Of a stretch of 64,000 nt of DNA, positions 3,412-56,765 are shown in pieces (position 1 is the stretch's first letter; every line of letters starts with the position of its first letter). Where the stretch lies: the NCBI RefSeq assembly GCF_007994225.1, contig NZ_VLLL01000006.1, positions 434,001-498,000 on the forward strand. The letters are read 5' to 3'. The notes under the pieces were generated by a model. The model saw nothing but the letters and a program-made list of their open reading frames with translations, was not told the DNA's origin and did not search any database. Made by a program: the position numbers and the translations under genes. Origin of the DNA: Stackebrandtia albiflava (GTDB lineage Bacteria; Actinomycetota; Actinomycetes; Mycobacteriales; Micromonosporaceae).

Positions 3412-3517
3412 TTATCCACAACCGGGTACTCATCCACAGGCCGCCGGATTGCGCCTGGACGGGCCGTCGTCCGCCGTTCTACGCTCAAAGTATGGGGCGG
3501 AGGTTGGAGGCCCCCGA
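3412..3517 (+). promoter_or_regulatory. dual-nonamer leaderless promoter module, copy D
   Basis: Box 1 TTATCCACA (3412-3420) and box 2 TCATCCACA (3430-3438) start 18 bp apart. The -35 TGGACG starts at 3456, the -10 TACGCT at 3480, and an ATG sits at 3492, followed by GGGCGGAGG and then GGCCCCCGAG. This is the most diverged of four copies; the spacings agree with copies A-C to within one base. The downstream frame runs antisense into the response regulator gene and is probably not a protein gene. Confidence 0.7.
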
Positions 3518-12590: not shown

Positions 12591-12698
12591 TTCTCCACAA
12601 CCACCCGGTTATCCACAAGCCCCGCGTTCACCGCTCGACACCGCCCGGTCGCGGTACCTAGGCTCGACGCCATGGGGAGGAGGAGTGGCGGCCCCCTA
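12591..12698 (+). promoter_or_regulatory. dual-nonamer leaderless promoter module, copy A
   Basis: Box 1 TTCTCCACA (12591-12599), box 2 TTATCCACA (12609-12617), -35 TCGACA (12635-12640), an 18-bp spacer, -10 TAGGCT (12659-12664), CGACGCC and ATG at 12672, then GGGAGGAGGAGTGGCGGCC. From the -10 on, 38 bases match copies B and C exactly. The ATG frame gives a 33-residue Arg/Pro-rich product (12672-12773) that starts MGRRSGGP. A GTG frame starts at 12685 and stops after four codons. The rest of the gap 12412-12793 holds only short GACGGGCC repeats. Confidence 0.75.
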
Positions 12699-12793
12699 GG
12701 TCGGGGGCGCGATGCGGGACACCGGCCCGCACCCCCGCCATCCCGGCCCCGGCGGCGACGCGGCGCTGCGTGATCGCCCGGAGCCCCGGGGCC

Positions 12794-31226: not shown

Positions 31227-31337
31227 TTATCCACAACCCCGCCCGTGTCCACAACCCTCCGCCGCGGTGCTCGACGGCGGAGGGTCGCCGCTCCTAGGCT
31301 CGACGCCATGGGGAGGAGGAGTGGCGGCCCCCGAGCC
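31227..31337 (+). promoter_or_regulatory. dual-nonamer leaderless promoter module, copy B
   Basis: Box 1 TTATCCACA (31227-31235), box 2 GTGTCCACA (31245-31253), -35 TCGACG (31271-31276), an 18-bp spacer, -10 TAGGCT (31295-31300), CGACGCC and ATG 31308. The ATG frame encodes 26 residues (to 31388); a GTG frame from 31321 encodes 43. The preceding part of the gap (31005-31226) holds no gene. Confidence 0.75.
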
Positions 31338-34481: not shown

Positions 34482-35227
34482 CGATCCGGATTCTGGTGGC
34501 GGACGACCAGGAGGGCATCCGGGCGGCGTTTCGGATGGTGCTCGACGCCCAACCGGACATGACGGTGATCGCCGAGGCCGGTGACGGGAACGGTGCCGTG
34601 GAGCAGGCGAGGCTGCTGCGGCCGGACGTCGTCCTCGCGGACGTGCGGATGCCGGGTATGGACGGTCTCGGGGTGACGCGGGCGTTGGCGGGACCGGACG
34701 TGGCCGAGCCGATCAGGGTCATCGTGGTGACCACGTTCGACCTCGACGAGTACGTGCACACGGCGTTGCGCAACGGGGCGTGCGGCTACCTGTTGAAACG
34801 TTCCGGGCCGACGTTGATGGTGGAGGCGGTCCGGGCGGCGATGGCGGGCGACACCCTGATCAGTCCGCAGATCACGGTGCGGTTGTTGCGGCACATGTTG
34901 CCCGCCGAGCCGCCCGAACCACCCGAGGTGCCGTTGTCGGAACGGGAGCGGGAGGTGGTGAGGCTGTTGGCCACCGGCAGGTCCAACGCCGAGATCGCCG
35001 AGGAACTGTTCATCAGCGCCGGGACGGTGAAGAACCACCTCGCGAACGTGCAACGCAAACTCGGCACCGCCAACCGGGTCGGCATCGCGGCGTGGGCGTG
35101 GTCGTCGGGCCTGGTCGCACGGTTACCGCCGGGACGGCCCGGTGCCTCGTCGCCGGGTTTTCCACAACCGGACGGTTTTCCACAGGCCGGTGCCCGGCGG
35201 CTCGACGTGACCACGGGACCGGCATAG
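34478..35227 (+). CDS. NarL/FixJ-type response regulator with an added C-terminal tail
   Basis: 249 residues. Receiver domain (about 1-125): DDQ at 8-10, phospho-acceptor in [13 protein letters not shown] at about 53, VTTFD, LLKRSGP. LuxR HTH (about 150-212): [19 protein letters not shown] and [18 protein letters not shown]. The usual end would be near residue 217. The last 30 or so residues are encoded by the spacer and TTTTCCACA boxes of promoter module C ([10 protein letters not shown]), and the stop codon TAG is the first half of that module's -10 box. The tail therefore looks acquired. Confidence 0.9.
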
Positions 35228-35267
35228 GCTCGACGCCATGGGGAGGAGGAGTGGCGGCCCCCGACTC
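35158..35267 (+). promoter_or_regulatory. dual-nonamer leaderless promoter module, copy C
   Basis: Box 1 TTTTCCACA (35158-35166), box 2 TTTTCCACA (35176-35184), -35 TCGACG (35202-35207), a 17-bp spacer, -10 TAGGCT (35225-35230), CGACGCC and ATG 35238. Boxes 1 and 2 lie inside the end of the response regulator gene. The ATG frame continues 94 codons antisense to the SnoaL-like gene and is probably not a protein gene. Confidence 0.75.
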
Positions 35268-39765: not shown

Positions 39766-40182
39766 TCAATGGCCGGGGCACGTGCAGAGGTTGTCGTTGA
39801 TCCTGCTGTTCTGCTGCGCGTCGCCCGGTCGGCGCCTCGCTGCGTTGTCGGAGGCAGCGCCGCTGAAGAACCGGTGCGTACCACACCGGTACGCAGGACC
39901 TTCTCCGCCTTGCGAACGCACTCGACCGGACACCGCTCGCGACGAACGAGGACCAAAGACAACCTCTAAGTTCACGGTACCCGCCAGGGTGTAACCGGCC
40001 TCGTCCACGGCGTCGCGCACCCGGTCGACGTCGAGGGGGGCGTCGGAGGTGACGGTCACCTCGCCCTTGCCCAGGTCCACCTGTACTCCGGTGACTCCGG
40101 ACACTCCGGTGAGTTCCTCGGTGACGGCGTTGACGCAGTGGCCGCAGGTCATTCCGGTCACCTGGTACGTCTGGGTGGTCAT
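39766..40182 (-). CDS. copZ: copper chaperone (HMA domain) with an element-derived C-terminal tail
   Basis: 138 residues. Residues 1-68 are a complete HMA domain with GMTCGHC at about residues 10-16 and a normal end (DEAGYTLAGTV). The remaining 70 residues are encoded by the inverted-repeat element at 39786-39967. They are basic with four Cys (YRCGTHRF, CTCPG) and look unlike any HMA protein. The native stop was evidently lost on insertion. The HMA part should still deliver Cu(I); whether the tail is tolerated or cleaved is unknown. Cotranscribed after csoR. Confidence 0.85.
   Translation of the reverse strand: MTTQTYQVTGMTCGHCVNAVTEELTGVSGVTGVQVDLGKGEVTVTSDAPLDVDRVRDAVDEAGYTLAGTVNLEVVFGPRSSRAVSGRVRSQGGEGPAYRCGTHRFFSGAASDNAARRRPGDAQQNSRINDNLCTCPGH
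39786..39967. mobile_element. inverted-repeat element (MITE-like), copy 1
   Basis: 182 bases bounded by AGAGGTTGTC and GACAACCTCT, a perfect 10-bp terminal inverted repeat. The interior matches copy 2 (56448-56613) closely, with CTGTTCTGCTGCGCGTCGCC shared exactly and a 16-20 base insertion near 39855. An inner hairpin GGTGCGTACC / GGTACGCA is present. No transposase gene. It lies inside the copZ reading frame. Confidence 0.75.
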
Positions 40183-40701: not shown

Positions 40702-40785
40702 CCCTTGAAATAATGCCTTGCGCCCCTCTACTCTTGGCGCGTTGCACCCGGCCCCTCGTCCGCCACACCGGCGACACCGGGTGAC

Positions 40786-40937
40786 ACCGCCGAATCGTTC
40801 GAGCACGAGCCGGGGACCCAGTTCCCGGGGTGAATCCGTCACCGGGACCGGTGACGGTAGGGCGCAGACAACCGGCCGAATGCCGAGCACCGCTTCTTCC
40901 CGCCCGAACCCGTCAGCTAACCCGGTAGGCGGATACC
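40786..40937 (+). ncRNA. c-di-AMP riboswitch (ydaO/yuaA type)
   Basis: The conserved blocks of this class are present in order: GCCGGGGACCCA (about 40809), GGGGTGAATCC (about 40827), GGTAGGGCGC (about 40856), and CCCGAACCCGTCAGCTAACC, then CGGTAGGCGG, at 40902-40932. It ends shortly before AAGGAG and the start of the NlpC/P60 gene. Actinobacterial riboswitches of this class control cell-wall hydrolase genes such as rpfA and NlpC/P60 and turn expression off when c-di-AMP is high. Confidence 0.85.
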
Positions 40938-40960
40938 AGGAAGAAGGAGCACGCCTGACG

Positions 40961-41908
40961 GTGAGAAAGCGTCTTGCCTTCATCGCTGCGGCCGTGGCCG
41001 CGATCACCTTCACCATGACGACCCCCACCACGGTCCACGCGGACCCCTCCCCCGAGGAGGTGGAGGAACAGGTCAAGGAGAAGAGCGAAGAGCTGGAAGC
41101 GGCCATCGAGGAGTACAACGGGGCCAGGGAAGACCTCAAGGACACCAAGGAACGCATCGAGGAGATCGAGGAGTCCCTTCCCGAGCTGGAGGAGGAGGCC
41201 GCCGCCTCCAAGACGGTGGCGACCGACATCGCCGTGGCGTCCTACACCTCCGGTAACACCCGGATGAGCACGGTCAACACCCTGCTGGACGGCTCCCCCA
41301 CCCGCACGATCGAGCGGCTGTCCGTCCTCGGCGCGATCAACGCGTGGCAGGCCGCCGACCTGGCCGCCTACGCCGACCTCGCCCAGCAGTACGAGGACGA
41401 CCTGGAGACCCTTGAACAGTTGAAGGCCGACCAGGACGAGATCGCCGAAGACCTGGAGAAGGAGACCGAGAAGCTCGAGGGCGAACTCGCCGAACTCAAG
41501 GAGTTGCAGGCGCAGGTCAACCCGAGCAGCGGATACGACGGCACCCTGCCGCCGCCTCCGTCGGGCGCGGCGGGCGACGCCGTCCAGTACGCGTACAACC
41601 AGATCGGTGCCGGCTACGACATGGGCGCCGCCGGACCGGACTACTTCGACTGCTCGGGCCTCACGATGATGGCGTGGCGGCAGGCCGGTGTCGGCCTGTC
41701 ACACCAGACCAACGCGCAGTGGGCCGAGACCGCACGGGTGTCCCGCGACGATCTCGTGCCCGGTGACCTCGTGTTCTACAACAACCTCAACCACGTCGCC
41801 ATCTACGTCGGCGACGGGCAGATCATCCACGCACCCACCTACGGTCAGACCGTGTCGGTGGCCGGTATCGACTCGATGCCGATCGTCGGTTACGGCCGGC
41901 CGGGCTGA
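40961..41908 (+). CDS. secreted NlpC/P60 cell-wall hydrolase with coiled coil, riboswitch controlled
   Basis: 315 residues. Signal peptide at about 1-27 (cleavage after VHA), then a coiled coil rich in Glu/Lys (about 30-185) and a Pro/Ser linker. The C-terminal NlpC/P60 domain has the catalytic Cys in YFDCSGLTMMAW at about residue 231, His in LNHVAIYVGDG at about 278 and a third polar residue in IIHAPT. It cleaves peptide stems of peptidoglycan, as RipA-type enzymes do. AAGGAG lies upstream of the GTG, directly behind the c-di-AMP riboswitch. Confidence 0.93.
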   Translation: MRKRLAFIAAAVAAITFTMTTPTTVHADPSPEEVEEQVKEKSEELEAAIEEYNGAREDLKDTKERIEEIEESLPELEEEAAASKTVATDIAVASYTSGNTRMSTVNTLLDGSPTRTIERLSVLGAINAWQAADLAAYADLAQQYEDDLETLEQLKADQDEIAEDLEKETEKLEGELAELKELQAQVNPSSGYDGTLPPPPSGAAGDAVQYAYNQIGAGYDMGAAGPDYFDCSGLTMMAWRQAGVGLSHQTNAQWAETARVSRDDLVPGDLVFYNNLNHVAIYVGDGQIIHAPTYGQTVSVAGIDSMPIVGYGRPG

Positions 41909-43247: not shown

Positions 43248-43904
43248 ATGCACATCACTTCTCGCAAGGTGGCCACGCTCGTCATCGCGAGTGCGGCCGG
43301 ACTCGCCGCGCTCGGGCTGGCCTCACCGGCCATGGCGGAACCGAGCGCGAGCCAGACCGGCCCGGCGTCTTGCGTCGCGACACCGGCCGACCCGAGCGTC
43401 CAGGACCCGGCGGTGGACCCGGCGGTTCAGGACCCGGCCGTTCAGGACCCGGCCGTCCAGGACCCGGCCGTTCAGGATCCGGCGGTTCAGGACCCATCCG
43501 GACAGCGGTCCGCGGCCGGTCGTTTCGTGGAGCAGCCCGGTTCGCCCGCCGAGGCGGCTCCCGCTCCGGACCTCGGCGGAGCGGTTCCGGCACCGGCACC
43601 GGCGCCGAACAACCCGTGCCCGGCCGCGCCCGCCGACCCGGGCGCCATACCGGCCGACCCGGGCGCCGTGCCTGCGGATCCGGGTGCGGTTCCGGCCGAC
43701 CCGGGTGCAGTGCCCGCGGATCCGGGCGCGATCCCGGCCGACCCCGGTGCGGTTCCGGCGGACCCGGGTGCCGTTCCGGCGGACCCCGGTGCCGTTCCGG
43801 CGGACCCGGGTGCCGTTCCGGCGGACCCGGGCGCTGTCCCCGCCGACCCGGGTGCCGTGCCCGCCGACCCGGCCGCGCCCGTGCCGCTGGCGGACCCGAG
43901 CTGA
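43248..43904 (+). CDS. secreted repeat protein (PADPGA heptads)
   Basis: 218 residues. Signal peptide MHITSRKVATLVIASAAG through PAMA (about 1-28). The mature chain has two repeat blocks: about seven VQDPA pentapeptides (about 46-80) and eleven PADPGA(V/I) heptapeptides (about 128-205). Synonymous codons vary between repeats, which points to selection at the protein level. Two Cys could pair. Such Pro/Asp/Ala rods may span or bind the cell wall, as inference only. GGGGGAG precedes the ATG. Confidence 0.75.
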   Translation: MHITSRKVATLVIASAAGLAALGLASPAMAEPSASQTGPASCVATPADPSVQDPAVDPAVQDPAVQDPAVQDPAVQDPAVQDPSGQRSAAGRFVEQPGSPAEAAPAPDLGGAVPAPAPAPNNPCPAAPADPGAIPADPGAVPADPGAVPADPGAVPADPGAIPADPGAVPADPGAVPADPGAVPADPGAVPADPGAVPADPGAVPADPAAPVPLADPS

Positions 43905-56447: not shown

Positions 56448-56613
56448 AGAGGCCGTCTTCGATCCCGCTGTTCTGCTGCGCGTCGCCCGGTCGGCGCCTC
56501 ACGGCGTTGTCGGACGTCCTGTGTACGACACCGGTACGCAGGACGTTCTCCGCCTTGCGGATGCACTCGACCGGATCGCCGCTCGCGACGAACGAGGACC
56601 AAAGACGGCCTCT
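56448..56613. mobile_element. inverted-repeat element (MITE-like), copy 2
   Basis: 166 bases bounded by AGAGGCCGTCTT and AAGACGGCCTCT, a perfect 12-bp terminal inverted repeat. The interior is closely similar to copy 1 (39786-39967). An inner hairpin GTCCTG / CAGGAC with TGTAC...GTAC is present. It lies between the B12-binding gene and the hemoglobin operon. No transposase gene; no clear target duplication. Confidence 0.75.
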
Positions 56614-56765
56614 TACGTCCCGCCGGGGCTTGGGTACCGTATGGCTGAACCCTCAACCTCCGGGGAGCCGCCGCCCCGCCGGTATCGATCCGAGCCGGTG
56701 GGTAAACCCCCGACGGCCGGCTCCGCCGGTGGACATCCCTCGAAACCCGCAGGAGAACGAGTTCA

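Follow-up and report, generated by a model that had tools for sequence, protein, structure and literature searches.

The window analysed here, a 64,000-nucleotide stretch of the Stackebrandtia albiflava genome (contig NZ_VLLL01000006.1, positions 434,001 to 498,000), contains four copies of a promoter-like module (Table 1). Each copy comprises two TCCACA-containing nonamers (boxes) whose starts lie 18 bases apart, a -35-like hexamer starting 26 bases after the start of the second nonamer, a -10 hexamer (TACGCT or TAGGCT) starting 24, 24, 24 and 23 bases further on in copies 1 to 4, and an ATG starting 12, 13, 13 and 13 bases after the start of the -10. From the -10 onward, 38 bases are identical in three of the four copies. 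Positions and distances agree with those given in a preliminary description of this DNA. The exact pattern TCCACA-N12-TCCACA matches the window four times, at these copies; with up to two mismatches it yields 11 matches against 3.85 expected, a number reached in none of 100 shuffles. The genes neighbouring the copies are unrelated (HAD hydrolase, two LuxR-type response regulators, MFS, flotillin, M48, RibD and SnoaL-like proteins) and no common gene follows the four copies, which argues against the proposal that they are the preserved 5' ends of a mobile gene family.

Table 1. Components of the four module copies in the window; tails are predicted RNA 5' ends.
Feature	Positions	Strand	Basis
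Copy 1 box 1 TTATCCACA	3412..3420	+	pattern match and sequence reading
Copy 1 box 2 TCATCCACA	3430..3438	+	pattern match and sequence reading
Copy 1 -35-like TGGACG	3456..3461	+	sequence reading
Copy 1 -10 TACGCT	3480..3485	+	sequence reading
Copy 1 class B tail, predicted RNA 5' end ATGGGGCGGAGGTTGGAGGCCCCC	3492..3515	+	
Copy 2 box 1 TTCTCCACA	12591..12599	+	
Copy 2 box 2 TTATCCACA	12609..12617	+	
Copy 2 -35-like TCGACA	12635..12640	+	
Copy 2 -10 TAGGCT	12659..12664	+	
Copy 2 class A tail, predicted RNA 5' end ATGGGGAGGAGGAGTGGCGGCCCCC	12672..12696	+	
Copy 3 box 1 TTATCCACA	31227..31235	+	
Copy 3 box 2 GTGTCCACA	31245..31253	+	
Copy 3 -35-like TCGACG	31271..31276	+	sequence reading
Copy 3 -10 TAGGCT	31295..31300	+	
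Copy 3 class A tail	31308..31332	+	
Copy 4 box 1 TTTTCCACA	35158..35166	+	
Copy 4 box 2 TTTTCCACA	35176..35184	+	
Copy 4 -35-like TCGACG	35202..35207	+	sequence reading
Copy 4 -10 TAGGCT	35225..35230	+	
Copy 4 class A tail	35238..35262	+	

Throughout the genome to which the window belongs (G000), the exact box pair occurs 58 times against 4 for a reversed-pattern control, and a G-rich tail follows 52 of these 58 pairs; the pair is thus not equally common outside the promoter context. A promoter-plus-tail pattern gave 55 exact matches and none in the control. The repeated module is therefore real, but four copies are too few: at least 66 tails are present, namely 64 retrieved by one pattern in the fetched loci (labelled by L numbers) and two more (L050 and L069) that were missed because of their -10. 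The spacing described as rigid is 18 in 51 of the 64 tails, but 17 in nine and 19 in one, and three have no standard pair. Thirty-seven of the 64 tails carry GGGGAGGAGGAGTGGCGGCCC, 13 carry GGGGCGGAGGTTGGAGGCCC, and 14 fall into seven further types. By sequence, the copies typically combine two TTNTCCACA-type boxes with a sigma-70-like promoter, and the stretch that reaches from the -10 to about +25 is fixed. As had been proposed, spacing is kept while intervening sequence is free, since the stretch between the boxes and the -10 varies while the boxes, their spacing and the tail are kept. These comparisons support the view that the module is a preserved putative promoter with a fixed geometry.

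Constraint was assessed by counts taken from copies picked either for their RNA part or solely for the boxes; these replace a base-by-base conservation profile whose copies were picked by TAGGCTCGA plus the RNA part, and whose flatness was partly built in. The class A RNA part occurs 37 times in the fetched G000 loci, 36 times with the identical 15 bases TAGGCTCGACGCCAT before it and CC after it, and once with a one-base difference in those flanks, and the exact 38-mer follows 29 of the 58 box pairs. Beyond the box-to-(-10) stretch, variation resides in the sequence that follows the C run. In class A, the bases between -10 and +1 are fixed though they lie outside the predicted RNA, so that part of the constraint acts at the DNA level. 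The same bases are variable in class B, in which the tail is constant, which points to the transcribed part.

In view of the fixed untranscribed bases of class A, the stretch from -10 to +25 could be a protein binding site, a polymerase trap or an R-loop site, with any RNA as a by-product and the boxes positioning or titrating DnaA on the chromosome's origin side; we regard this DNA-level alternative as conceivable but doubtful, and the class B tails speak against it. Consistent with it, sequences downstream of the tails fold no better as terminators than upstream controls in four genomes, and the 5' end forms no hairpin more stable than those of shuffles (z -0.66 to 0.93, nine folds), the stem bases of the predicted 5' hairpins hardly varying among copies. 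No conserved 3' part was found after the tails in G000. No known RNA family was recognised in the tail: the Rfam 15 models that reached the gathering cut-off in the window were those of a c-di-AMP riboswitch and a tRNA, and a search allowing E up to 5 matched nothing in the 451 bases surrounding copy 2. A long trans target was likewise rejected, as a 23-base tail pattern with up to three mismatches gave 57 matches in G000, all tail-like among the matches listed.

The module extends to related bacteria. Among 61 genomes, exact pairs number 58 in G000, 38 in Phytomonospora endophytica (G029), 34 each in a genome of the same genus as the window (G003) and in Actinorhabdospora filicis (G010), 15 in G004, 12 in G002, and 0 to 10 in the remaining 55, the low counts including a recurrent coding-sequence match (L075, L078, L080, L083, L088, L105). 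The same layout is found in G003, P. endophytica and A. filicis, and tails were also read in G002; in G004, the tail pattern gave 16 matches against 2 for the control, and one locus, L279, matches boxes and tail in full. A box-plus-tail sequence model, for which at most about 15 candidates were scored per genome, gave near full-length matches, among those listed, in G000, G002, G003, G004, G010 and G029. At least 224 of 250 family genomes gave some match at E 0.01, mostly to the promoter part and with weak scores. Five further longish matches were read, four without such a tail (L284, L285, L287, L290) and one with a different G-rich start (L299). Minor features recur in the relatives: a CACGCGTG-like sequence lies in the promoter spacer (-35 to -10) of the A. 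filicis and some G003 and P. endophytica copies, and 12 of the 19 P. endophytica copies have TTCACGTT directly after the tail, a stretch similar to it often lying near the -35.

The relatives are informative regarding the ATG. Present at the predicted start in the window copies and in 56 of the 64 G000 tails, downstream of boxes with a DnaA-box core, it would fit leaderless mini-ORFs under DnaA control. Among 53 tails of G003, P. endophytica and A. filicis, however, one begins with ATG, seven with GTG and 45 with neither, and the window ORFs (316, 33, 26 and 94 codons) share no sequence after the tail. Since the start codon is not kept, leader ORFs, one of the inferences initially put forward, are rejected, and DnaA-controlled mini-ORFs become very improbable; the companion inference of a regulated family of tiny transcripts is supported, as predicted RNAs. 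A tail pattern requiring ATG gave no match in a wider contig collection; as the nearest genomes are possibly not included there, this result is no proof of absence.

According to gene calls made with a simple codon-usage script rather than a standard gene finder (the script failed to call ssb and M23 at L004 and L003), the tails face an opposite-strand gene in 38 of 52 cases in G000, 14 of 19 in P. endophytica, 15 of 19 in A. filicis and 8 of 16 in G003, the last thus showing no orientation bias. In G000, 23 of 52 lie between converging genes and four between diverging ones. A role as leader or attenuator for the gene that follows would suit the 14 of 52 G000 tails that precede a same-strand gene; the orientation of the other 38 nonetheless rules it out for most G000 copies and, the window neighbours being unrelated, we give it hardly any credence.

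REP and MITE repeats also occur as dispersed, short and mostly intergenic copies, a distribution that the present family resembles. The many copies, their preference for converging over diverging genes, the small number of sites common to different species and the tandem copies seen in P. endophytica and A. filicis could all result from functionless spread of such a repeat, carrying a promoter by chance. Here, in contrast with these repeats, spacing and ends are kept while the intervening sequence varies, which is not given by copying alone. Furthermore, the two sites common to G000 and G003 with both flanks related, one near dnaA (L306/L307) and one where the tail lies within a called gene in both genomes (L042/L160), carry different tail types in the two genomes, and a 116-base copy had no match in phage or plasmid collections (blastn, E 0.01), so that phage and plasmid relatives of this copy were discarded. 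No terminal inverted repeats were noticed by eye. Taken together, we judge a REP/MITE-like origin quite unlikely. In this comparison, which covers 16 G003 tails only, two further sites may be shared, on the basis of one flank (L062/L162 and L019/L117, the latter being window copy 3), and other pairs are weaker. Arrays of four to five boxes with an 18-bp period were also observed (L146 in P. endophytica, L166 in G003).

The position of the tails along the chromosome bears on the DNA-level alternative. Twenty of the 23 tail-pattern matches of G003 lie in the origin-nearer half (KS p 1.5e-4), as an origin-side role of the boxes would predict; in G004, on the contrary, the bias is not significant (11 of 16, p 0.18). 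The control gave two matches per genome, and part of the matches were confirmed as tails by reading. Relative to the direction of replication, the strands of the G003 tails are about evenly distributed (counted by hand).

The preliminary description overlooked that competence-type genes carry the same box pair, which becomes apparent in the pairs devoid of a tail. Six of the 58 G000 pairs are of this kind: four stand before genes for DUF4192, SSB, ComEA and M23 peptidase proteins, a fifth falls within a gene, and the sixth could not be clearly assigned to any gene. The best named match of the DUF4192 protein comes from Candidatus Stackebrandtia excrementipullorum (49% identity). The pairs devoid of a tail in relatives lie ahead of genes for YraN, Ssd/CpaE (an NCBIfam equivalog assignment, 267 bits), SSB, ComEA, a ComF-like phosphoribosyltransferase, M23 and DUF4192 proteins, the remaining pairs lying before unidentified small proteins or nothing clear; Ssd is also found behind the pair in G003 and G004. 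Of the proteins called at 23 additional family loci, 10 were run against Pfam and 13 of the 23 were recognised: three ComEA, five SSB (two by start sequence only), two M23, one Ssd-like and two RcpC-like (one under the Pfam cut-off, one by likeness only). The pair hence precedes ComEA, SSB, M23 and, weakly, RcpC-like proteins in other genera as well. In G000 itself, ComEA matches NCBIfam comE under the cut-off (84/152 bits) with SLBB and HHH domains present, and no Ssd match over the cut-off was found. The same operator thus stands before several late competence genes, with yraN of G000 and G003, just before which no TCCACA was seen, as exceptions. Around DUF4192 genes, TCCACA lies within 260 bases at 65 of 80 loci and the exact 18-bp direct pair at only three; at the Micromonospora loci, the boxes look inverted by eye.

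Distances within the competence-type promoters match those of the module. Leaderless genes have their ATG 75-78 bases after the first TCCACA, several at the predicted RNA start, and the A of the tail lies ~76-80 bases after it; other genes behind box pairs start at 101-154 bases. Tails also occur upstream of some such promoters: in G000, 45 bases separate the end of a tail from the box pair of ssb, 40 from that of the DUF4192 gene and 44 from that of comEA, with corresponding distances of 285 bases for comEA in P. endophytica and 106 for the comF-like gene in A. filicis. A simple calculation gives ~0.2% as the share of promoters expected to have a correctly oriented tail no more than 300 bases away. 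No other tail-less pair had a tail within 400 bases upstream (loci up to L190), so most competence-type promoters in the relatives are without one. That boxes without a tail are common to competence-type genes is a further argument against the DNA-level alternative.

Which factor recognizes the boxes can be addressed by comparison with local origins. The nonamers have a TCCACA core preceded by T, T/C, the form of a DnaA box, and this core (NNNTCCACA) is common to the element boxes and the 87 TCCACA boxes of five local origins, a likeness that also favours the DNA-level alternative. The flanks of the first boxes differ from those of the origin boxes, as the core is followed by A in 76% of the 114 first boxes examined, over half of which come from G000, and in none of the 87 boxes of the origins. 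The second boxes are origin-like (G 82% vs. 72%). In addition, unlike DnaA boxes in general, the element has a direct pair, mostly 18 bp apart and upstream of a promoter. Because the boxes equal local DnaA boxes in core and not in one flank, DnaA is only a possible factor.

Other regulators may act on the same tail. Direct repeats of TTAAGG/TTCAGG with a period of ~10-11 bp lie beside the boxes of six G003 tails (L112, L152, L156, L157, L158, L162) and upstream of three G000 tails without a box pair (L059, L065, L069). Located upstream of the -10, they resemble a response-regulator site, and the tails that bear them without a box pair suggest that a second regulator drives the same tail; these three tails are also at odds with the DNA-level alternative. 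An HTH_17 protein, Mlut_14660, was suggested as a repressor in Micrococcus luteus (PMC8467076, in the part available). HTH_17 regulators were therefore considered here and set aside, with 7-12 matches per genome in five genomes and none tied to the boxes.

Although only with a modest degree of confidence, we favour the interpretation that the copies are scattered members of a small-RNA gene family that reuses the promoter of a competence (DNA-uptake) regulon, most copies seeming to make one short G-rich RNA rather than a protein. According to this interpretation, drawn from sequence comparison, an activator, either DnaA or another factor with the same core site, would be bound at about -81 to -55 and recruit RNA polymerase, and transcription would begin with the A that precedes the G run. 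The product would be a short non-coding RNA whose first ~25 bases are functional and whose remainder differs in each copy. All copies would follow one common partner, and would consequently change together within a species, as the differing tail types at the two sites common to G000 and G003 would suggest. Counting against this interpretation are the lack of terminators, of folds better than shuffles and of a conserved 3' part, the even orientation in G003, the fixed untranscribed bases of class A, and the gaps in the competence link (DUF4192 loci, Ssd in G000, yraN in G000 and G003). A bolder proposal, which we consider unlikely and mention tentatively, is a competence-coupled family of ~15 to 66 dispersed copies per genome that change in step with one partner, and whose G-rich, Shine-Dalgarno-like 5' end could cover the 16S anti-SD, to the benefit of leaderless competence mRNAs transcribed from the same promoters; the A. 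filicis tails, which lack GGAGG, count against this last step.

The csRNAs of Streptococcus pneumoniae, which are CiaR-controlled and linked to competence, number about five copies, have CiaR direct repeats, and bind ribosome sites through pyrimidine-rich loops. Compared by description only, they share with the present family several near-identical small RNAs (predicted ones here) made from the promoters of one regulator, and the link with competence; by contrast, at least 66 copies are found here, with different boxes and a G-rich start.

Competence control in high-GC Gram-positives is little known, as far as the consulted parts of two reports indicate (PMC8467076, PMC12849477). In M. luteus, the competence loci include comEA/comEC, tad and RcpC/CpaB-CpaE (PMC8467076, available part), and genes of the same kinds are found under the box pair here, i.e., comEA, Ssd/CpaE and RcpC-like; unlike here, no operator sequence or small RNA was found in that part of the report. 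The portion of the literature covered by our search contained no account of the box-pair motif or of the tail RNA. If an operator is common to comEA, comF-like, ssb, yraN and Tad-type genes, it would offer direct access to the regulator. A cassette present in more than 60 copies, its 38-base core fixed and its surroundings varying, would be uncommon among bacterial genomes as an instance of concerted change.

Besides the module, the window holds a c-di-AMP riboswitch (ydaO/yuaA leader; 40778-40947, + strand, 77 bits) upstream of a called gene (40961-41908), and a duplicated segment whose two parts (39786-39976 and 56448-56622), 16.6 kb apart, are ~86-91% alike in pieces. Eleven imperfect direct repeats with a 21-base period occupy 43581-43898, near an array of six imperfect direct repeats, mostly with a 15-base period, at 43388-43504.
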